From: Pectobacterium versatile
GTDB lineage: Bacteria > Pseudomonadota > Gammaproteobacteria > Enterobacterales > Enterobacteriaceae
Direction: 5' to 3'
NCBI RefSeq assembly: GCF_020166435.1
Contig: NZ_JAINZP010000003.1
Location: forward strand, 248,001 to 312,000
DNA length: 64,000 nucleotides
How positions within the stretch are numbered: the first letter of the stretch is position 1; each line of letters opens with the position of its first letter. Shown here in pieces: positions 6,737 through 21,697 of this stretch. A model generated the notes under the pieces. The model did not search any database. It saw nothing but the letters and a program-made list of their open reading frames with translations, and had not been told where the DNA came from. A program made the position numbers and the translations under genes.

Positions 6737-6797
6737 GCTTCATTATTTAGACTGCTGAATGATGATTTCTCGCCATTATTTATTTTGGGAATACGTT

Positions 6798-7946
6798 ATG
6801 ACGGAATTTTTGCCTTTTTCCCGCCCGAACATGGGCGAAGAGGAAATTGCTGCCGTGGCTGAAGTATTACGATCCGGCTGGATAACCACGGGGCCGAAAT
6901 GTCAGCAATTAGAGCAGGCGTTTTGCCAGCGAATAGGGTGCCGACAGGCGATAGCGGTCAGTTCAGCGACGGGCGGTATGCACGTCACGCTGATGGCGCT
7001 CGGTGTTGGCCCCGGCGACGAGGTGATTACACCATCCCAAACCTGGGTTTCAACCGTTAACATCATCACGCTCTTGGGCGCGGAACCAGTGATGGTAGAT
7101 GTGGATCGGAATACGCTGATGGTGCGACCGCAGGATATCGAGGCGGCCATCACACCGAAGACCAAAGCCATTATTCCCGTGCATTATGCCGGTGCGCCTG
7201 CCGATCTGGATGCGCTGCGTGCGCTCAGTGAACGCTACGGCATCCCGCTGGTTGAGGATGCCGCACACGCCGTGGGTACGCAGTATCGCGATGCATGGAT
7301 CGGCGCGAGCGGAACCGCCATTTTCTCGTTTCATGCCATTAAAAACATCACCTGTGCGGAAGGCGGCATGGTGGTGACGGACGACGAGGCTCTCGCCGAA
7401 CGACTACGCAGCCTGAAGTTTCATGGACTGGGCGTGGATGCGTTCGACAGGCAGTTACAAGGGCGCAAACCGCAGGCCGAAGTGGTGGCGCCGGGGTTTA
7501 AATACAATCTGGCGGATATCAATGCAGCCATTGCGCTGGTTCAACTGGATAAACTCCCGGCGATCAACGCCCGCCGTCAGCAGCTTGCCGCTCGCTATCT
7601 CACCCAACTGCGCCCGCTGCCACTCCTACCGCTGGCCGTTCCTGACTATCCCCATCTGCACGCCTGGCATCTGTTTATGGTGCGCGTGGATGAAACGCTG
7701 TGCGGCATATCGCGCGATGATTTGATGGCGGCATTGCAGGCTCACGGCATTGGCACTGGGCTGCATTTCAGAGCGGTGCATACGCAGAAATACTACCGTG
7801 AGCGCTATCCCCATTTGCACCTGCCGGCAACGGAATGGAATTCGGCATCGCTGATGACGCTGCCGCTGTTCCCCGATATGCAGGACAGCGATGTCGATCG
7901 CGTCGTCGCGGCGCTAACCTCGATTTTGGAGTCTGTTTGTGATTGA
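6798..7946 (+). CDS. arnB: UDP-L-Ara4O C-4'' transaminase ArnB
   Basis: The 382-residue PLP enzyme of the DegT/DnrJ/EryC1 family transfers an amino group from glutamate to UDP-4-keto-arabinose in the cytoplasm. Lys182 in [12 protein letters not shown] is the expected PLP lysine, and [10 protein letters not shown] carries the cofactor-binding Asp. The start at 6798 gives [13 protein letters not shown], the family N-terminus; an in-frame ATG 39 bases earlier would add a non-conserved tail. It is the first gene of arnBCADTEF and overlaps arnC by 8 bases. Confidence 0.96.
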
Positions 7947-8922
7947 TGACATCAAAAATGTTTCTATTGTGATTCCCGTTTATAACGAAGAAGAGAGCCT
8001 GCCGGTACTGCTCGAACGCACGCTGGCAGCCTGTCGGCAGATCGGTAAACCTTGGGAAATCATTCTGGTTGATGACGGCAGCAGCGATCGTTCGGCGGAA
8101 CTGCTGACCGAAGCGGCGAGTGACCCAGAGAAGCACATTATTGCCGTGTTGTTGAACCGAAATTATGGTCAGCACTCGGCCATCATGGCTGGGTTCCAGC
8201 AGGCGGTGGGCGATGTGATTATCACGCTGGATGCCGATTTACAGAACCCGCCGGAGGAAATCCCACGGCTGGTGGAGTACGCTGCGCAAGGGTATGACGT
8301 GGTCGGCACCGTGCGGGCAAACCGGAAGGATTCGCTGTTTCGCAAACTGGCCTCGAAAACCATCAACATGATGATCCGGCGTTCAACTGGGAAATCCATG
8401 GTCGATTATGGCTGCATGCTGCGCGCGTATCGTCGCCACATTGTCAGCGCGATGCTGCGCTGCCACGAACGCAGCACCTTTATTCCTATCCTTGCCAATA
8501 CCTTCGCGCGGAAAACCATCGAGATCGACGTGATGCATGCCGAGCGCGAGTTTGGCACGTCCAAATACAGCTTTCTGAAGCTGATTAACCTGATGTACGA
8601 CCTGCTGACCTGCCTGACAACAACACCGCTGCGCATACTCAGCCTGATCGGCAGCGTCGTCGCGCTGTCGGGTTTCCTGCTGGCGCTGCTGTTGGTCGGC
8701 CTACGACTGTTCTTCGGTGCAGAGTGGGCGGCAGAAGGCGTGTTCACGCTGTTTGCTGTGCTGTTTATGTTTATCGGTGCGCAGTTCGTCGGGATGGGGC
8801 TATTAGGGGAATACATCGGTCGTATCTATACCGATGTTCGCGCACGACCACGCTATTTTGTGCAAAAGACAGTGAGTGCGGCAACGCCACTGACCACCAG
8901 CTTACGGGATGAAGAAGAATGA
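7939..8922 (+). CDS. arnC: Undecaprenyl-phosphate Ara4FN transferase ArnC
   Basis: This 327-residue GT2-family membrane enzyme moves 4-formamido-L-arabinose from UDP to undecaprenyl phosphate. The catalytic domain (about 1-230) contains [11 protein letters not shown] and [17 protein letters not shown]. Two membrane helices follow at about 235-260 and 270-295, and the basic ending [15 protein letters not shown] is typical. The start is GTG at 7939, overlapping the last codons of arnB; an internal ATG is not suitably placed. It overlaps arnA by ATGA, indicating translational coupling. Confidence 0.96.
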
Positions 8923-10919
8923 AAGCGATCGTATTTGCCTACCATGATATTGGCTGCGTCGGTCTTGAGGCGTTAAAGCTCGCGGGCTATGAGATTCAAG
9001 CCGTGTTCACACACAGCGATGCGCCGGGCGAGAACCACTTCTATGCGTCGGTGGCGAAAGCGGCCGCCGAGATGGACGTGCCGGTGTTTGCACCGGAAGA
9101 CATTAACCATCCGCTCTGGGTGAACCGCATTCGGGAGCTGGCACCGGATGTTATTTTTTCCTTCTATTACCGCACGTTATTAAGCGATGACATTCTCCAG
9201 TTGCCAGCGTTTGGCGCATTCAATCTGCACGGCTCACTGTTGCCGCGCTACCGGGGACGTGCGCCGGTGAATTGGGTACTGGTGAACGGTGAAACGCAGA
9301 CGGGCGTGACGCTGCACAAGATGGTTTCTCGCGCTGATGCGGGTGATATCGTTGCCCAGTCCGTGGTGGCGATTGACGATGACGATACTGCGTTGACGCT
9401 GCATGGAAAGTGCCGTACCGCCGCCGCCGCTTTGCTGGCGCAGCAATTACCGCTGATCCGCTCGCGTGAGATTACGCTGACGCCGCAGGATGAAAGCCGA
9501 GCCAGCTATTTCGGACGTCGCACGGCGGCAGATGGGCTGATCGACTGGCACAAAAGCGCCCGTGAGATTAACAACCTGATCCGCGCGGTGACGGAGCCGT
9601 ATCCGGGCGCGTTTACGTTTCTCGGTGAGCGCAACGTGACGATTTGGCGCGCTCGTGTTGTAAAGGACAAGATCGGTGGTGAGCCGGGCGCGATTCTCTC
9701 GACGTCGCCGCTGGTGGTGTCCTGCGGTGAGGATGCGCTTGAGATCGTCAGCGGGCAGAGTGAGACCGGGCTGTATATGTCTGGCAGCCGACTGGCGGCG
9801 GAAATGGGTATGGTGCCACAGGCACGACTGGGTAACCTCGCCAGCCGTGTGCAGCGACGCCGCACGCGCGTCCTGATCCTTGGCGTGAACGGTTTTATTG
9901 GTAACCACCTGACTGAACGCCTGCTGCGCGACGATCGCTATGAGATCTACGGGCTGGATATCAGCTCGGATGCCATCGCCCGTTTTCTTGGCGATCCGCG
10001 TTTCCATTTTGTGGAAGGCGATATCAGCATCCATAACGAATGGATCGAATATCACATTAAGAAATGCGATGTCATTCTGCCGCTGGTGGCGATTGCCACG
10101 CCGATTGAATACACCCGTAACCCGCTGCGCGTGTTTGAACTGGATTTTGAAGAGAACCTGAAAATCGTGCGCGACTGCGTGCGCTACAACAAACGCATCG
10201 TTTTCCCGTCCACCTCAGAAGTGTACGGTATGTGTGATGACAAAGAGTTTGATGAAGACACTTCGCGCCTGATTGTCGGGCCGATCAACAAGCAGCGCTG
10301 GATTTATTCCGTATCCAAGCAGTTGCTGGACCGGGTGATCTGGGCGTACGGCGCGAAAAACGGCCTGCGTTTCACGCTGTTCCGTCCGTTTAACTGGATG
10401 GGGCCGCGTCTGGATACGCTGGATGCGGCACGTATCGGTAGCTCCCGTGCCATTACTCAATTGATCCTTAATTTGGTGGAAGGATCGCCAATCAAGCTGG
10501 TGGATGGCGGGGCGCAGAAACGCTGCTTTACCGATATTCACGACGGTATTGAGGCGCTGTTCCGTATTATTGAAAACCGTAACGGCCAGTGTGACGGGCA
10601 GATCATCAATATCGGTAATCCGCACAATGAAGCCAGTATCCGCGAACTGGGTGAAATGCTGCTGACCAGCTTTAATGCGCACCCGCTGCGCGATCGCTTC
10701 CCGCCGTTCGCCGGATTTATTGACGTGGAAAGCAGCAGCTATTACGGGAAAGGCTATCAGGATGTGGCGCACCGCACGCCAAGCATTCGCAACGCCAAAC
10801 GCCTGCTGGCATGGGAACCAACGGTGAAGATGGAGCAAACCGTCGCGGAAACGCTGGACTATTTCCTGCGTACCGTTGACCCCTTGCAATCAGACAACGC
10901 CACGGATGCGCAGGGATGA
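8919..10919 (+). CDS. arnA: Bifunctional UDP-Ara4N formyltransferase/UDP-GlcA decarboxylase ArnA
   Basis: The 666-residue fusion enzyme performs the first and third steps of UDP-L-Ara4FN synthesis. The N-terminal formyltransferase (about 1-305) has [15 protein letters not shown] with the catalytic Asn and His. The C-terminal dehydrogenase/decarboxylase (about 315-660) has the Rossmann motif [10 protein letters not shown], the SDR-type STSEVYG segment, and [10 protein letters not shown] with the catalytic Tyr-Lys. Length is close to E. coli ArnA (660). It overlaps both neighbours by 4 bases. Confidence 0.97.
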
Positions 10920-11809
10920 CGCGTGTTGGCCTGCGGATAGATGTCGATACCTGGCGCGGTACGCGAGACGGCGTGCCTGCGCTGCTGGATGTGCTGGCGG
11001 AGTTCGATATTCAGGCGAGTGTCTTTTTTAGTGTCGGGCCGGACAACATGGGGCGTCACCTGTGGCGTCTGCTGCGTCCACGCTTTTTATGGAAGATGCT
11101 GCGTTCCAACGCAGCCTCGCTCTACGGTTGGGATATCTTGCTGGCCGGTACGGCGTGGCCGGGGCGTCATATCGGTGCACGGTTTGGCTCGTTAATCCGC
11201 CAGACGCACGACGCAGGCCATGAAGTCGGGTTACATGCTTGGGATCATCACGGCTGGCAGGTGAATGTCGCCCGCTGGTCGGATGCGCAACTAGCCGCGC
11301 AGTTCCGTGAAGGAATGGACGCGCTGACATCAATTCTGCCATCGCTGGTGCGCTGTTCCGCTGTGGCGGGCTGGCGAGCCGATTCGCGTGTTGTAGAGAT
11401 GAAGCAGCGCTGGAATCTGGACTATAACAGCGACTGCCGCGGTATCCGGCCTTTTCGGCCGCGCCTGAAAAATGGTGAGCTAGGCACCGTGCAGATTCCG
11501 GTCACATTGCCGACCTACGACGAAGTCATCGGCGAGCGCGTGAGTGACGGCGAATTTAACGACTTTATTCTTGAGGCGATCCAGCAGGATCGCGGCGTGC
11601 CGGTCTACACCATCCATGCGGAGGTTGAAGGTGGCGCGAAGCTGGCGCTGTTCCGCCAATTGCTGCTTCGCGCCCGCCAGCAGCACATCGAATTTTGTCC
11701 GCTTTCCGCATTACTGCCTGATGACCCAACCGCGCTGCCCATCGGGCAGATTGACCGCGCGCCGTTTCCCGGACGGGAAGGGTGGCTTGGTGTGCAAACG
11801 GAAGAATAA
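10916..11809 (+). CDS. arnD: 4-deoxy-4-formamido-L-arabinose-phosphoundecaprenol deformylase ArnD
   Basis: The 297-residue NodB-type polysaccharide deacetylase removes the formyl group from undecaprenyl-phosphate Ara4FN, releasing the amine that will cap lipid A. RIDVDT near the start supplies the metal-binding acidic residues, [15 protein letters not shown] the two metal histidines, and [12 protein letters not shown] the conserved arginine region. [12 protein letters not shown] near residue 220-235 carries a late conserved His. The start overlaps arnA by ATGA. A short gap containing AGGAG separates it from arnT. Confidence 0.96.
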
Positions 11810-11826
11810 ATAAAGCAGGAGATAGC

Positions 11827-13497
11827 ATGGAAAAAGGCATGATAAGACTGAAAAGCACCATGATATTGGTGTTATTTGCTTTGCTCTACCTGTTGCCGCT
11901 TAACGGCCGCTGGCTGTGGTCACCGGACGAAACGCGCTATGCCGAAATCAGCCGCGAGATGCTTCAGCGTGGCGATTGGATCGTGCCACACTTGCTGGGT
12001 ATTCGCTACTTTGAGAAACCCGTTGCGGGCTACTGGCTGAATAACATCAGTCAATGGTTATTAGGTCATACCAATTTTTCCGTGCGTTTTGCCTCGGTAT
12101 TTTCTACCGGGTTGAGCGCACTGCTGGTGTTCTGGCTGGCGATGCTGCTGTGGAAAAACCAGCGTACCGCGCTGTTGGCGGCGACGATCTATCTGACATC
12201 GCTGCTCGTGTATGGTATCGGCACGTACAGCGTGCTCGATCCGATGGTGACGCTCTGGATGACGACGGCGCTGTTCAGCCACGTGCTGATTCAGCGTGCC
12301 ACGCTGACGCGTGAGCGGCTCGCGGCTTGGGGGCTGATGGGGCTGGCCTGCGGCATGGGATTTATGACCAAAGGCTTTCTGGCGCTGGCCTTGCCGGTCA
12401 TCAGCGTGCTACCGGTGGCGCTGGCGCAAAAGCGGATTAAGGAACTGCTGCTGTTTGGGCCGCTGGCGGTTGTCGTCGCGGTATTGCTGAGTGCGCCGTG
12501 GGCGCTGGCGGTGCATGCGCGAGAAGCCGATTACTGGCATTACTTCTTTTGGATTGAACATATCCAGCGTTTTGCCGAAGACGATGCGCAGCATAAAGCG
12601 CCGTTCTGGTATTACCTACCCGTTTTGATTCTCGGGATGTTCCCCTGGCTGGCGCTGCTGCCGGGCGCGTTGCGTAGCGGCTGGACGGAACGGAAGGCGT
12701 ACCCAGAGCGGTTCCTCCTGCTGTGCTGGATGGTGATGCCTCTGCTGTTTTTCAGCATCGCTAAAGGTAAGCTGCTGACCTACATTCTACCGTGCTTTGC
12801 GCCGCTAGCGCTGCTGATGGCGGCGTGGTTGTCCGGTTTGGCACCTGCGGTACGCGAACGTGTATTGCGCATCAATAGTTGGCTCAATATTGCCTTCGGC
12901 AGCGTGCTGGCGCTCGCTGTTGCGGCGCTTGGCCTCGGCATCATCATGCCGCATCTCTACCAACCGGGAGAAGGGCTGACCATCGTCTCGGGGATTGTCT
13001 GCTTCATCGGCTGGGTGGCTTTTGCCGCTGTCAGCCTGAAAAAGCAACGGGCGTGGGGCTATCTGGTCGCGGGCTGTCCGTTATTTCTGGCGCTGCTCGT
13101 TGGCGGGAGTATTCCGGCGAGCGTGGTGGATTCAAAGAACCCCCAAACCTTTATTCGTAGCCATCAGCCGTTGCTGCAAGACAGCCGCTATGTGCTTAGC
13201 GACGAGGTGGGGCTGGCTGCCGGACTGGCGTGGGAGTTGAAGCGCAGTGATATCACCTTATTTAAGGCGCGGGGCGAGCTGAACTATGGGCTGAACTATG
13301 CCGATTCCGCTGACCGCTTTGTGGATGAGGGGGCTTTTCCAACCTGGCTTGCCGAGAAACGGCGTAGCGGAAATGTCGCGCTGATGCTGAAGATCGACCG
13401 GGACAGCGATGACGAGTATCGCAATCTGCCTGCGCCCAATCAGTTGAGAAAATCGCACCGTTACGTACTGCTGTTTTATAAGCAGGTAGCGCCATGA
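11827..13497 (+). CDS. arnT: Undecaprenyl phosphate-alpha-L-Ara4N transferase ArnT
   Basis: The 556-residue polytopic GT83 enzyme transfers L-Ara4N from undecaprenyl phosphate to lipid A phosphates on the periplasmic side. The first periplasmic loop carries [16 protein letters not shown], whose Asp and Glu match the catalytic metal site of ArnT/PMT enzymes. A dozen hydrophobic segments follow, ending in a soluble C-terminal domain from about residue 440. The ATG at 11827 is preceded by AGGAG and fits family length; an in-frame ATG within the end of arnD would add 15 unlikely residues. It overlaps arnE by ATGA. Confidence 0.96.
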
Positions 13498-13835
13498 GTT
13501 ATCTATTGGTTGCCATCGTCTGCCTGCTGACCAGTTTAGGGCAACTGTGTCAGAAACAGGCGGCGGAGTGCTGGCGGCGTTTGCCGACGCATCGACGCCA
13601 GCGCGTGACGCTGGGATGGCTGATGTCGGCGGCCTTGCTGCTCGGTATCGGGCTGCTGCTGTGGCTTGTGGTGTTGCAGCATCTCCCGCTCGGTGTGGCG
13701 TATCCGCTGCTGAGTATCAATTTTGTACTGGTCACGCTGCTGGCGCACTACGGGTTTGGCGAGCGTGTGGACAGGCACCACTGGTGGGGTATTGCGCTGA
13801 TTGTCACCGGTATCTATCTGATGCAGGGGGGATGA
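13494..13835 (+). CDS. arnE: L-Ara4N-phosphoundecaprenol flippase subunit ArnE
   Basis: The 113-residue small multidrug resistance-like protein has four predicted helices. With ArnF it flips undecaprenyl-phosphate-L-Ara4N across the inner membrane. The segment [18 protein letters not shown] is the conserved third helix, and [15 protein letters not shown] closes the protein. It overlaps arnT (ATGA) and arnF by four bases, so the whole distal operon is translationally coupled. Confidence 0.94.
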
Positions 13836-14236
13836 TGGCGAAAAGAGGCTATATCTGGGCGATTATCAGCACTGTGCTAGCCAGCACCGCGCAGGTGTTA
13901 ATGAAAAGCGGCATGCTGGCGCTGCCGAGCATTTCCTTCGCGCACTGGCCGTCGCTCAGTTCGTTGGTAACGGGCTGGCCTGCGGTTGCGGTGCTGGTCG
14001 GCGTGATCTGCTACGGGCTGTCGATGGTGTGCTGGTTCATGGTGCTGCGCTATTTACCATTAAGCCGCGCTTATCCGCTGATTAGCTTAAGCTATGCGAT
14101 GGTTTATCTGGCGGCGGTTTTCCTGCCGTGGCTGAACGAACCGATGAGCCTGCGTAAAACCCTCGGCGTCCTGATTATTCTGCTGGGTGTCTGGCTGATT
14201 AACCGTAAGACGGGAAAAAAAGCCACACATAGATAA
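13832..14236 (+). CDS. arnF: L-Ara4N-phosphoundecaprenol flippase subunit ArnF
   Basis: The 134-residue partner of ArnE also has four helices; [19 protein letters not shown] corresponds to the conserved helix and [15 protein letters not shown] to the last. Two consecutive ATGs (13832 and 13835) are possible; the GGGGGGA run in the end of arnE is the ribosome-binding site. The reading frame is open for another 95 codons upstream inside arnE, but that extension has no membrane-protein character. It is the last gene of the operon, followed by an AT-rich hairpin. Confidence 0.94.
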
Positions 14237-17644: not shown

Positions 17645-18781
17645 ATGAAAATAAAAAATACTCTCTGCCTACATATCCTGATGGTTACTCTTGCCATCTT
17701 GTTTCTTAGTGTTCCCCCGCTGGTGACAAGTGTTGATCCGGCGCTGACATTCCAGCCACTGATTAACACAATGGAAGGGACGACAAAGGAACAAAAGGAA
17801 AAGATCGCCACCATTTCCCATGCCTTACAGGGCAATGCGATTTTCTTTCTCGGGGCTTCCGAGGTTTCGACATCTGAAGACGAACATTACGCGGTATATA
17901 ATTACTTTAATAACCAGCTACATCGTCCGGTTGTGGCCTATGGCGATAGCTATGTCGATAGCGTCACACATTTTTTACTGCTCTCGCGCTTTAAAAACGA
18001 GCTTAATGCTAACAGTAAGGTTGTTTTGCTGCTGGCACCCGATAGCTTTTATTCAGATGGTATTCCTCCGGCTATTTTCGCCAACAATTTCCCTGCGTCT
18101 ATTTTTGATCCTCTGATGAAAGATGACCAGACGCGTCCCTTTTTAGTCAATTATCTACAACATATCGATAAAGAAGAGATAAGCCATTTAACCTTTGGAC
18201 AAATGAAGGTCTATGGCTGGGATCCGCAAATTATCTGGCAGGAAGTGAGTTATCAATTTGCTAATTTTTGCGAGCTGATAAAAAACGACTGGCTGGCGAT
18301 GCTACATATTGTCCCTCAGCCTACACAACGGTGGCCTCAGCAGCCAACCTCCAATATGACTCCCGACTGGAATCGCGAGTTGGCGCAGGCTCATGTACTG
18401 AACCAGTCTCGTCAGCAAAGTGCAGAGACATTGTGGATGGATAAAGCTGTGTTTGCAGACGATCAAACGCCGGAAGAGTGGGATAACGCGCCAATTGTGC
18501 CTGCACAGATGGAAGCATTACGGGCGACGATCCAACTGCTGAAAGCGCGTAATGCCCAGTTTGTGGTCATTGTCGATCCGATTAATCCGTGGGCGATTAA
18601 TAACTCCCAGAAATTCCAGCCAGTCGACAGCCAGATCAGGTCGATGCTGGAAGAAAATCAGGTTCGTTATTTTGATATGTATGCGCAGCCTTATCAGAAC
18701 GGCTGGAATTGGGATCGCCTGCATCCCACTGAATCGGCATGGGTCGCGATGGATCAATTTATTGCAGAGAGTTTTAAATGA
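17645..18781 (+). CDS. dltD: DltD-like SGNH acyltransferase
   Basis: The 378-residue protein has one N-terminal membrane helix (about 6-27) and a periplasmic SGNH-type domain. The nucleophile is Ser72 in FFLGASEVS, and the Asp-x-x-His pair is Asp357/His360 in WDRLHPTESAW. In Gram-positive bacteria DltD accepts D-alanine from DltX and passes it to teichoic acid; the acceptor in a Gram-negative envelope is unknown. It is the first of five same-strand genes, and its TGA overlaps the dltX start. No strong ribosome-binding site precedes its ATG. Third-position composition is more mixed than in arn. Confidence 0.9.
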   Translation: MKIKNTLCLHILMVTLAILFLSVPPLVTSVDPALTFQPLINTMEGTTKEQKEKIATISHALQGNAIFFLGASEVSTSEDEHYAVYNYFNNQLHRPVVAYGDSYVDSVTHFLLLSRFKNELNANSKVVLLLAPDSFYSDGIPPAIFANNFPASIFDPLMKDDQTRPFLVNYLQHIDKEEISHLTFGQMKVYGWDPQIIWQEVSYQFANFCELIKNDWLAMLHIVPQPTQRWPQQPTSNMTPDWNRELAQAHVLNQSRQQSAETLWMDKAVFADDQTPEEWDNAPIVPAQMEALRATIQLLKARNAQFVVIVDPINPWAINNSQKFQPVDSQIRSMLEENQVRYFDMYAQPYQNGWNWDRLHPTESAWVAMDQFIAESFK

Positions 18782-18900
18782 TGAAAACCGCCATTCGCCT
18801 TTTTTTCCTTTATCTCTTTCTGGCAGTCACCATTGCCGCGTGGACCTCTGTTGATGAAAGCATGAGTTTAAAAGTGCATTTTGAATATCAAAAATTCTGA
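18778..18900 (+). CDS. dltX: DltX-like membrane microprotein with acyl-shuttle motif
   Basis: This 40-residue gene (39 if the second ATG is used) is too short for routine gene finding. One membrane helix, RLFFLYLFLAVTIAAW at about residues 7-22, is followed by a short extracytoplasmic tail ending exactly in FEYQKF. That matches FxYxxF, the C-terminal hexapeptide whose tyrosine carries the acyl group between DltB and DltD in Gram-positive Dlt systems. The ATG overlaps the dltD stop (AAATGATG), and the stop lies seven bases before dltB, with AAGGA between. Position, size, topology and motif all fit DltX. Confidence 0.9.
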   Translation: MMKTAIRLFFLYLFLAVTIAAWTSVDESMSLKVHFEYQKF

Positions 18901-18907
18901 AGGATGA

Positions 18908-20029
18908 ATGATGTACAGCTCCGGAATGTTTTTTTTCCTTCTGTTTTCATCAGCATTATTGTTTGCGCTGGTTAATCGCGTATTCAGTTATCGGCTGACG
19001 TATTTATCCGCCTTCTCCGTATTGGCGGTGTTCGGCTGGGGGTATATTTTCCAGGGGGATTACGTTGTTCCCGTGGCCGTGTTCCTGAGCTTTTATGTTC
19101 TCGTCACCTTAAAAGAGAAAGGTTGGTTAAAAATCTGGCAAGCGGTCAGCCTGACGCTGCTGCCGCTGTTTTTGGTGAAATTACACCTCAACAACCACTG
19201 GGGCATGATCGGCCTGTCCTTTATGACCTTCCGCGCCATTGATGTGCTGCTTTATCGCAGCAAAAAAGATGGTCATAACGTCCTGCATTACTTCTGCTAC
19301 CTTTTTATGCCTTTTATTATTCTGGCTGGCCCGATGTATCGCTGGCGGACATGGGTGAATGACATTAATAAACCGGTCTTCATCATTACCCGTGAGCAGT
19401 TTTTAGTGGCGATGGAGCAAATTTTTACCGGTATTATCCAGAAGTTCCTATTCGCCATGCTGATCAATAATCTGGTTATTGAGTCGTGGAGCCATCGCCC
19501 GTTTACATTAAGCGTGGGTGTCGTGATGTCACTGGCCTACAGCGCCTACCTTTATTTTGATTTTGCCGGTTACAGCAATATGGCTATTGGGGCAGGGCGC
19601 TTATTTGGCCTAAATATCCCAGCAAACTTCAATATGCCTATTCTGGCTAAAAACCCGCAGGACTTCTGGCGACGCTTCCACATCAGCCTGTCTGAATGGC
19701 TGAGGGATGTGGTCTTTATGCCGATTTATATGAATCTGATGAAGCTCGACTTTTTCCGACGGAACAAAACACTGGCGCAGAATATTGGCATCTTCTGCAC
19801 CCTGTTTTGTATGGGGGCATGGAACGGGCTCGAACGACACTATGTCATTAGCGGCGCGCTGTTTGGCGCCATTTCCGTTGCTCACAACATGCTGCAGTGG
19901 TCAGCCAAACGCAGTCCAGCGCTGAGCAGTTGTCTACATCATCCAGTTATTGTGTTCATCGGTCGCATTCTTACGCTGGCAAGCGCTGCGGCCTCCCTCT
20001 ACATCTTTAGCGGAATGTCTCCCCTATGA
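18908..20029 (+). CDS. dltB: DltB-like membrane-bound O-acyltransferase
   Basis: The 373-residue MBOAT protein has about ten membrane helices. It should move an aminoacyl group from DltC in the cytoplasm to the tyrosine of DltX outside. Family features are the re-entrant region AGYSNMAIGAGRLFGL, NPQDFWRRFHISLSEWLRDV (typical MBOAT W-H-x-S-L-S-x-W-x-R), and a late segment around His311. The usual WHG box reads WNG here (see findings). Two adjacent ATGs (18908, 18911) are possible with AAGGA upstream. It overlaps dltA by ATGA. Confidence 0.93.
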   Translation: MMYSSGMFFFLLFSSALLFALVNRVFSYRLTYLSAFSVLAVFGWGYIFQGDYVVPVAVFLSFYVLVTLKEKGWLKIWQAVSLTLLPLFLVKLHLNNHWGMIGLSFMTFRAIDVLLYRSKKDGHNVLHYFCYLFMPFIILAGPMYRWRTWVNDINKPVFIITREQFLVAMEQIFTGIIQKFLFAMLINNLVIESWSHRPFTLSVGVVMSLAYSAYLYFDFAGYSNMAIGAGRLFGLNIPANFNMPILAKNPQDFWRRFHISLSEWLRDVVFMPIYMNLMKLDFFRRNKTLAQNIGIFCTLFCMGAWNGLERHYVISGALFGAISVAHNMLQWSAKRSPALSSCLHHPVIVFIGRILTLASAAASLYIFSGMSPL

Positions 20030-21459
20030 ACCTTCACTTAGAGCTTCAGGAACTGCAAGATTTCCTCCGGGCGGCATTACTCGACCCCGCGAACCCAGAT
20101 CAGTTGGCGATTAGCGGAAGCGATGACGCGATGACCTGGCAACAACTCTCTATCGCCGTTACCGACTGGTCGGATCGCTATCAGCATTGTCGGCAGCCTG
20201 CTGGCTCGCCGGTTGTGTTGTACGGACATCAGCAGGCCGAGTTTGCTGTGGCAATCTATAGCTGCCTACTGCACAACATTCCGTATATCCCGGTGGATTG
20301 CATCTATCCGGAGGAGCGGCTCAACGAGATTTGCCATCTGGCGAGTGCGCCTTATTATTACGATGTGGCGACCAGACAGTTCATTGCTACCAGTGAGGCG
20401 GGGCAGGCGCTGGTCGAGCAAGATCTCGCCTATATCATGTTCACCTCCGGCAGCACTGGAAAACCCAAAGGGGTGCAGATCGGGCGTGAAAGCCTGTGGC
20501 ATTTCATGAAGTGGGTGCGCGAGGACTTTGCGCTGCCTGATATGCCCGTGCTGATGAACCATGCGGTGTTCAGCTTCGATCTCTCTCTGATCCCGCTGCT
20601 GGCGAATCTGGCAACTGGAGGGCACATCGTTCTGAATGCGAAAGAGGATATCGCGACAGAAAACTGGCTCGACCGCCTGAAAGACAACGGCGTTTCCGTC
20701 TGGGTTTCAACGCCCTCTTTCGCCTACCAGAGGCTGCTGTCTCCCCAGTTCAACAGTGAATATTTACCTGAACTCAACGTCTTCGTGTTCATTGGCGAAG
20801 TGCTCAACAAAGCGCTGGTAAAACAGTTACGCCGTCGCTTCCCGCATGCCAAAATTCTCAACTCCTATGGCCCAACGGAAGCAACTATCGCGACCACCGT
20901 CATAGAAATCACCGATGAAATCCTGCACAGTGAAAATGACCTGCTGCCGGTCGGCGCGATGATGCCAGACTCCAGAATGGAAATTACGTCTGAGGGGGAG
21001 CTGATCATTTGGGGAAAAAATGTGATGCGTGGCTACCTTGGGCTCGCGAAAGAGAATGCGGAAAAACTGCTGCATCGGGAGAGCGAAGCCTTCCGCGGCT
21101 ACAGAACCGGTGACTTGGGTTACGAAGACGGGCTACTGTACTGTCAGGGGCGCAATGACAGCCAGATCAAACTCAATGGCTACCGTATTGAAATCAACGA
21201 AATTGAAAATCGCCTGCTGGCGATATCCGACATCAGCGAAGCGGTTGTTCTGCCGCTGATGAAATCGGGTGGTGGCGTTTTACGTATTGCCGCGTTCTGC
21301 GTGACGAATTTAGCGCCAGAAGCGATTAAAACGTCGCTCTCGAAGGTGATTCCACCCTATATGGTGCCTTCCCAAATTATTATCAAAGATGCGTTGCCGC
21401 TTAATCCTAACGGCAAAATCGACCGTAAGCTGCTGGATACCCATGCCCGCACGATCTAA
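20026..21459 (+). CDS. dltA: DltA-like D-alanine--carrier protein ligase
   Basis: The 477-residue adenylate-forming enzyme activates an amino acid and loads it on DltC. Core motifs in order: FTSGSTGKPKGV (139-150), NSYGPTEAT (279-287), YRTGDLG, GRNDSQIKLNGYRIE, and NGKIDRK with the catalytic lysine near the end. Family assignment is firm, but the pocket motif that reads FCGEVL in Bacillus DltA, with the D-Ala-gating cysteine, is FIGEVL here (Ile256), so the substrate should not be taken as proven. It overlaps dltB by four bases and is followed 16 bases later by dltC. Confidence 0.92.
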   Translation: MNLHLELQELQDFLRAALLDPANPDQLAISGSDDAMTWQQLSIAVTDWSDRYQHCRQPAGSPVVLYGHQQAEFAVAIYSCLLHNIPYIPVDCIYPEERLNEICHLASAPYYYDVATRQFIATSEAGQALVEQDLAYIMFTSGSTGKPKGVQIGRESLWHFMKWVREDFALPDMPVLMNHAVFSFDLSLIPLLANLATGGHIVLNAKEDIATENWLDRLKDNGVSVWVSTPSFAYQRLLSPQFNSEYLPELNVFVFIGEVLNKALVKQLRRRFPHAKILNSYGPTEATIATTVIEITDEILHSENDLLPVGAMMPDSRMEITSEGELIIWGKNVMRGYLGLAKENAEKLLHRESEAFRGYRTGDLGYEDGLLYCQGRNDSQIKLNGYRIEINEIENRLLAISDISEAVVLPLMKSGGGVLRIAAFCVTNLAPEAIKTSLSKVIPPYMVPSQIIIKDALPLNPNGKIDRKLLDTHARTI

Positions 21460-21475
21460 TTACTCAGGAAAAATG

Positions 21476-21697
21476 ATGGAACAAGAAATACTCGCGCTGT
21501 TTGAAAAGATCTTATCCCGTAACGTGGGTTTTAACGATGAGCTGATTGAGTCCGATATTCTCGACTCTATTCTGGCCGTCGATCTGGTGCTGGAAGTGCA
21601 AGACGTTTACGGCTGTGTGATTCCACCAACCGAAGTCGCCACCGTTCTGAAGACCCCGGCGGATCTGGCCCACTACATTGAAGAAAACCGCGGCTAA
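21476..21697 (+). CDS. dltC: DltC-like aminoacyl carrier protein
   Basis: The 73-residue acyl-carrier-type protein carries the phosphopantetheine serine in ESDILDSILAVDLVLEV (Ser about residue 33). DltA charges it and DltB unloads it. The second of two adjacent ATGs (21476) is chosen because AGGA lies 6 bases before it. It is the last gene of dltDXBAC and is followed by a terminator, so the operon is complete without other genes. Confidence 0.92.
   Translation: MEQEILALFEKILSRNVGFNDELIESDILDSILAVDLVLEVQDVYGCVIPPTEVATVLKTPADLAHYIEENRG

Follow-up and report, generated by a model that had tools for sequence, protein, structure and literature searches.

We analysed a 64,000-nucleotide stretch of the Pectobacterium versatile genome (contig NZ_JAINZP010000003.1, positions 248,001 to 312,000; hereafter the window), which carries on its forward strand an operon with genes resembling dltD, dltB, dltA and dltC and, between the first two, a microgene of 40 codons (Table 1). 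An earlier note on this DNA had proposed that the microgene encodes a free-standing DltX, whose C-terminal FxYxxF motif would carry an acyl group from the acyltransferase DltB, of the membrane-bound O-acyltransferase (MBOAT) family, to the SGNH acyltransferase DltD.

The microgene between dltD and dltB

The microgene opens with ATG 18778 and closes with TGA 18898-18900, giving a 40-residue product, MMKTAIRLFFLYLFLAVTIAAWTSVDESMSLKVHFEYQKF. Its start overlaps the end of dltD (18781) by 4 nt, as ATGA, and 7 nt separate its stop from the dltB start at 18908. The placing of a 40-codon frame here, its overlap with dltD and its 7-base gap to dltB, all called by the earlier note, are borne out exactly, as is, by translation, the single-helix product ending in FEYQKF. 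Among the 614 open reading frames (ORFs) of at least 30 residues scanned in the window it is the only one ending in F.Y..F, and its peptide consists of one hydrophobic helix and the C-terminal motif (best 19-residue hydropathy 1.7-2.1 in three examples). A search of the window peptide against solved chains gave no match at E ≤ 10, and the RefSeq label of the product in the two plasmid records that list it is "hypothetical protein." Translation may in fact begin at the next in-frame ATG, 18781, which would give 39 residues, because this is the start conserved in most relatives; the first codon in relatives is sometimes T, I, K or Q.

The frame is conserved in relatives. Searching 392 genomes of the same family with the whole window DltB as query (E ≤ 1e-40) identified 38 with DltB, and the microgene frame stands directly before dltB in all 38, with an ATG at the expected place in 36. 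It is also present in 49/49 named loci (among the genera are Pectobacterium, Dickeya, with D. oryzae and D. undicola, Kosakonia, Enterobacter, Buttiauxella, Cedecea and Phytobacter) and in 2/2 plasmids, being frameshifted in two of these 51. The earlier note had named the lack of a conserved FxYxxF frame in related genomes as an outcome that would count against it; the frame is instead present in each of these sets and in one Burkholderiales genome besides. Across 43 distinct nucleotide sequences, drawn from the window and the 47 named loci that remained once the two frameshifted ones of the 49 had been dropped, the pooled ratio of nonsynonymous to synonymous polymorphism (pN/pS) is 0.20 in the microgene's own frame vs 1.06 and 2.77 in the other two. 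In the same set, nearly all variation in the six motif codons is synonymous; position 5 alone differs in amino acid (Lys/Gln). The microgene is a real gene under purifying selection, in its own frame only. Its tail motif is the most constrained stretch, with 4 of 6 columns invariant vs 3 in the whole remainder of the peptide (30 sequences), and every copy seen reads [FY]xYQ[KQ]F.

Diverged copies retain the arrangement. Two genomes of a second genus of the same family have a DltB 48% identical to that of the window and a 41-residue peptide ending YEYQQF, in an operon ordered dltC-D-X-B-A (seen in full in one genome, with which the frames of the other agree), and one Burkholderiales genome has a DltB 45% identical and a peptide of about 68 residues ending FQYQQF in the same place, peptide lengths in the Enterobacterales being 39-41 residues. 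The Burkholderiales genome was the only one of 200 sampled in that order with a DltB well above general MBOATs (E 1.6e-94). In a sample of the phylum (398 genomes) the DltD family PF04914 was found in 5 genomes and a DltB above general MBOATs in 5, only in the window's family, and the Gram-negative Dlt system is therefore rare and patchy. A class sample of 369 genomes yielded no additional DltB, and E. coli genomes gave no near match to the dlt operon. Among the named genomes of the collection, Pectobacterium carotovorum has the closest DltB (99%).

Some copies lie on plasmids. Insertion sequence (IS) elements lie beside the dlt operons of a Klebsiella electrica plasmid (NZ_CP041250.1) and an Enterobacter cloacae plasmid typed conjugative (NZ_CP071862.1). 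A Klebsiella pneumoniae plasmid, also typed conjugative (NZ_CP063883.1), has IS elements beside dlt, with dltA and dltC seen and pmrD nearby; its record begins inside dltB. One dlt plasmid typed conjugative carries the entire operon. We also encountered a contig titled Chryseobacterium whose dlt operon is of the enterobacterial type, the record probably being mislabelled or contaminated, and a Ligilactobacillus plasmid (L099, 3513-4921) with a lone dltB adjoining a bactofencin A-like bacteriocin gene and no other dlt genes listed in the stretch shown.

In the window, in two plasmid records and in the YEYQQF genus, the microgene sits in an operon with dltA, dltB, dltC and dltD. Ser72, Asp357 and His360 of the window DltD align with a Ser, an Asp and a His conserved in two Gram-positive DltD, which we take to be the catalytic triad of the family, and the triad is, as judged from the alignment, intact; DltD found no match by sequence among solved chains at a threshold of 0.001. 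The window DltB scores 193.8 bits against TIGR04091, under the NCBIfam cut-off of 375. A complete arnBCADTEF operon (6759-14236) lies 3.4 kb upstream of the dlt operon, so that two envelope systems with a bearing on polymyxin are close neighbours. A rough scan of the DNA upstream of dltD turned up no convincing PhoP-like box.

Table 1. Features of the dlt locus, in window coordinates
Feature	Position	Strand	Remarks
dltD-like SGNH acyltransferase	17645..18781	+	PF04914, 4e-25
dltX-like microgene	18778..18900	+	40 codons and stop; second in-frame ATG at 18781
Putative acyl-shuttle motif FEYQKF	18880..18897	+	motif function in relatives: PMC12148441
Proposed acyl-carrying Tyr codon (Tyr37 of 40)	18886-18888	+	Tyr of FEYQKF
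dltB-like MBOAT	18908..20029	+	373 residues; no fused C-terminal motif; match to 6BUG, 1.4e-33
DltB His258	19679..19681	+	aligned with His289 of S. thermophilus DltB (6BUG); kept
DltB Asn306	19823..19825	+	at the position of the MBOAT His called invariant, His336 in S. thermophilus DltB (6BUG), core helix 6
dltA-like amino-acid adenylating enzyme	20026..21459	+	best solved relatives are DltA, 5.5e-81
dltC-like carrier protein	21473..21697	+	74 residues; PF00550, 8.3e-9; PRK05087, 1.5e-5 (below its cut-off)

Relation to DltX and to motif-fused MBOATs

The peptide invites comparison with two known arrangements. Gram-positive DltX binds DltB and DltD and carries D-alanine on the Tyr of its C-terminal FxYxxF (PMC12148441). 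Like DltX (PF12459, DUF3687), the microgene product is small, has one hydrophobic helix, is encoded beside dlt genes, ends in FxYxxF and has as partner a DltB lacking a fused motif. Its motif is FEYQKF, whereas Gram-positive DltX has FIYNEF or YIYNDF; its gene lies between dltD and dltB, whereas that of Gram-positives precedes dltA; and its Gram-negative hosts, unlike those of DltX, lack teichoic acid.

The second arrangement is that of the PatA/AlgI-type MBOATs of Gram-negatives, which show the same hexapeptide pattern, fused to the MBOAT itself. In PatA the motif Tyr is acetylated, its change to Phe abolishes labelling, and an acyl-Tyr shuttle to an SGNH partner has been demonstrated (PMC12148441). 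The donor in PatA is acyl-CoA, whereas here the peptide is separate and a carrier protein would be the donor; PatA/AlgI-type MBOATs also retain a histidine that Gram-negative DltB lacks (see below).

We find the fused motif in 36 of 38 non-Dlt MBOAT rows vs 0 of 90 Gram-negative DltB rows, where rows are loci, a single genome sometimes giving several, and frames that did not fit the search expression (e.g., L158, L166, L168, L171) are uncounted. A 31-MBOAT tree joins 9 Gram-negative with 5 Gram-positive DltB at 100/100 support, apart from 17 motif-fused MBOATs. With L036 and L037 included, a tree of 24 gives the DltB grouping 93/90 and a warning about long branches; L036 sits within the fused MBOATs and L037 on a long branch on the same side. 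Gram-negative and Gram-positive DltB, as judged from these trees, share descent, and for this reason Dlt systems seem as a rule to have the peptide separate. The earlier note had described the motif as usually fused in Gram-negative relatives and a free-standing DltX here as a distinct arrangement; instead, the fusion belongs to other MBOATs, not to Gram-negative DltB, and the separate peptide looks like the norm within the Gram-negative Dlt clade. The simplest reading of these comparisons is that the microgene product is most likely the unrecognised DltX of its clade.

The dlt system of Dickeya and Pectobacterium and the dra system of Bordetella pertussis are known Gram-negative systems that confer antimicrobial-peptide resistance (PMC3544676, PMC9410548). 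For Dickeya the genes described are dltD and dltBAC, and the available text of these two papers names no DltX for Dickeya or Bordetella. Nor did we find a description of a Gram-negative DltX in the literature searched, which left out most subscription papers.

The DltB active site and the choice of cargo

The MBOAT histidine, called invariant (PMC12979248, PMC11035591) and required in both PatA and DltB (PMC12148441), is replaced in the window DltB by Asn306. Whole-protein searches show Asn at this position in each of the 38 family genomes with DltB, and the Burkholderiales genome has it too. When MBOAT rows, counted as above, are ranked by their score against the window DltB alone, Asn occurs in 90/90 of those reaching 200 bits (64 distinct sequences); below 200 bits, Gram-positive DltB included, all 44 readable rows have His, two rows (L017 and L094, one degraded genome) having no readable residue in the same frame. 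Both Asn codons are in use (AAC 29, AAT 23, in 52 loci), and Asn306 is therefore hardly a sequencing artefact. A distant DltB with His could be missed, since the query itself has Asn306, and the 49 named loci are weak evidence on this residue because one of the two search patterns (FCMGAWN) contains it. No report of a DltB without the MBOAT histidine was found in the literature searched, from which most subscription papers were likewise missing.

A second active-site residue is in place. The usual MBOAT pair consists of the helix-6 His and an Asn, Asp or His of the re-entrant loop (PMC12979248), and in S. thermophilus DltB an inhibitor bound in the active site lies between His289 and His336 (PMC11035591). 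Gram-negative DltB has Asn on helix 6 and His on the loop: His258 is present in 62/62 distinct full-length Gram-negative sequences, as it is in 5 Gram-positive DltB and 33 fused MBOATs. The classes of this set were sorted by Asn and motif, so 62/62 is not an independent count of Asn; nine short frames were dropped, and L036 and L037, which have His and no motif, were set aside. Gram-positive DltB has His at both positions, which makes loss of one His a plausible step to a swapped pair. Given Asn306 in place of the usual histidine, we infer that the base is His258, though with far less certainty than we attach to the peptide as a shuttle.

His326 is a possible substitute base on alignment, occurring in 62/62 of the Gram-negative sequences, 6/33 fused MBOATs and 0/5 Gram-positive DltB; since its position could not be established, we put it behind His258. 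In the YGxxHG stretch Phe319 takes the place of the His, and the Gram-negative clade has His326-Asn327 without variation (loci L117, L118 and L152 are covered along with the window). Two other candidates were rejected: His311, which is Asn in some relatives, and the peptide residue preceding the motif, which is mostly His and is Gln or Lys in some. An AlphaFold2 model of DltB from 46 enterobacterial sequences was too poor to give the geometry of His258 and Asn306, with a mean predicted local distance difference test score (pLDDT) of 51 and a predicted template modelling score (pTM) of 0.27.

DltA also departs from its Gram-positive relatives in the main enterobacterial clade. Ile256 (20791-20793) aligns with Cys269 of Bacillus cereus DltA, which contributes to the choice of D- over L-alanine (PMC4176424, PMC8972799). 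Among frames matching the search expression, which several Gram-positive loci did not, the residue is Ile in 82 of 88 rows, all of the main enterobacterial clade, and Cys in six (two Gram-positive, two from the YEYQQF genus and two of one Burkholderiales genome). Because DltA has lost this enantiomer-selecting Cys, D-alanine may not be the cargo in the main enterobacterial branch, and the amino acid these systems use is therefore to be measured, not assumed.

A shuttle model and its alternatives

We consider it likely, with a probability of roughly 0.87, that the ORF encodes a free-standing peptide which, like DltX, shuttles the acyl group from DltB to DltD. For this model we infer the topology, the complex, the acyl-Tyr chemistry, the acceptor and the cargo as follows. 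The single helix would anchor the peptide, with its short basic N-terminus inside and its tail in the periplasm. DltA would activate an amino acid, D-alanine or a relative, and load it onto DltC; DltB would take the acyl group off DltC and transfer it to the tail Tyr in FEYQKF; and the resulting Tyr ester would hand it to Ser72 of DltD, which would place it on an envelope acceptor, lessening negative charge and polymyxin binding. Within DltB, His258 on the facing loop would be the base, assisted by Asn306, so that the roles of the usual MBOAT pair would be exchanged. The fuller proposal, that an active Gram-negative DltB with this turned-round pair passes its acyl group to an unrecognised DltX family and that the enterobacterial cargo may not be D-alanine, is tentative, and we would put it at somewhat less than an even chance. 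A dltB insertion mutant of Dickeya dadantii survives polymyxin less well, the acceptor being given as unknown (PMC3544676); lipopolysaccharide is described elsewhere as the probable acceptor (PMC5541007, citing Pandin et al. 2016).

Several points weigh against the shuttle interpretation. The DltX profile PF12459 matches 0 of 31 Gram-negative peptides at E ≤ 10 vs 4 of 4 Gram-positive DltX controls, and an hhalign comparison of Gram-negative with Gram-positive DltX gives a probability of 3% and a 12-column helix match only, from shallow alignments (effective sequence numbers, Neff, 1.8 and 2.4). Since neither result supports membership, we do not file the peptide in PF12459 and say only that it probably works like DltX; of the identity proposed in the earlier note, the shuttle function is thus supported and the sequence-family assignment is not. 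The first motif residue is Tyr instead of Phe in the YEYQQF genus, and the larger DltB tree carries its long-branch warning. Two genomes, common to both samples (L017 = L094, L114 = L074), lack the expected ATG and have the frame shifted. A DltB that lacks the histidine may depart from the usual mode of DltX acylation, the Dickeya insertion may be polar on dltAC, and expression of the microgene is a prediction. As for the two shifted copies themselves, assembly completeness is 87% for L114 and 49% for L017; these genomes are of low completeness or have broken dlt genes, and the copies may be pseudogenes or sequence errors.

One alternative, that the ORF is a chance or vestigial frame kept by the overlapping start and stop signals, could appeal to its 40 codons, to the failure of any family model to match the peptide and to the two frameshifted named loci, but it is hardly credible for a frame that alone shows a pN/pS of 0.20, whose motif codons vary almost only synonymously and which is still present in lineages whose DltB is only 45-48% identical. 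Complexes are often stabilised by small subunits with one helix, and the peptide might likewise be an accessory membrane subunit holding DltB and DltD together, its Tyr never acylated and the acyl group passing directly from DltB to DltD. That no homology to DltX could be shown and that the DltB active site is altered fit such a role; we nevertheless give it a slim chance, as constraint is concentrated in the tail motif (4 of 6 columns invariant vs 3 in the rest, 30 sequences) and the same hexapeptide pattern ends the fused MBOATs, of which PatA has its Tyr acylated (PMC12148441).

A third explanation concerns DltB and is compatible with a shuttle role for the peptide: Gram-negative DltB might be a non-catalytic channel or scaffold, with another enzyme loading DltX. 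The replacement of His by Asn throughout (38/38 family genomes; 90/90 rows of at least 200 bits) speaks for it, as does the need for this histidine in PatA and DltB (PMC12148441). We regard it as unlikely, given that DltB is conserved, with loop His258 and neighbouring residues invariant, that the operon showed no second candidate acyltransferase and that the dltB mutant has a phenotype, if perhaps a polar one (PMC3544676).

On the shuttle reading, the microgene product would probably be the fifth component that Gram-negative Dlt systems have so far lacked. In Dickeya these systems influence survival in polymyxin. The peptides go unnamed because the DltX profile does not match them. The consistent Asn of Gram-negative Dlt-type MBOATs may serve as a natural experiment on which residue is the base in MBOAT acyl transfer, and, given the altered DltA pocket, what chemical group the modification adds becomes a directly testable question.
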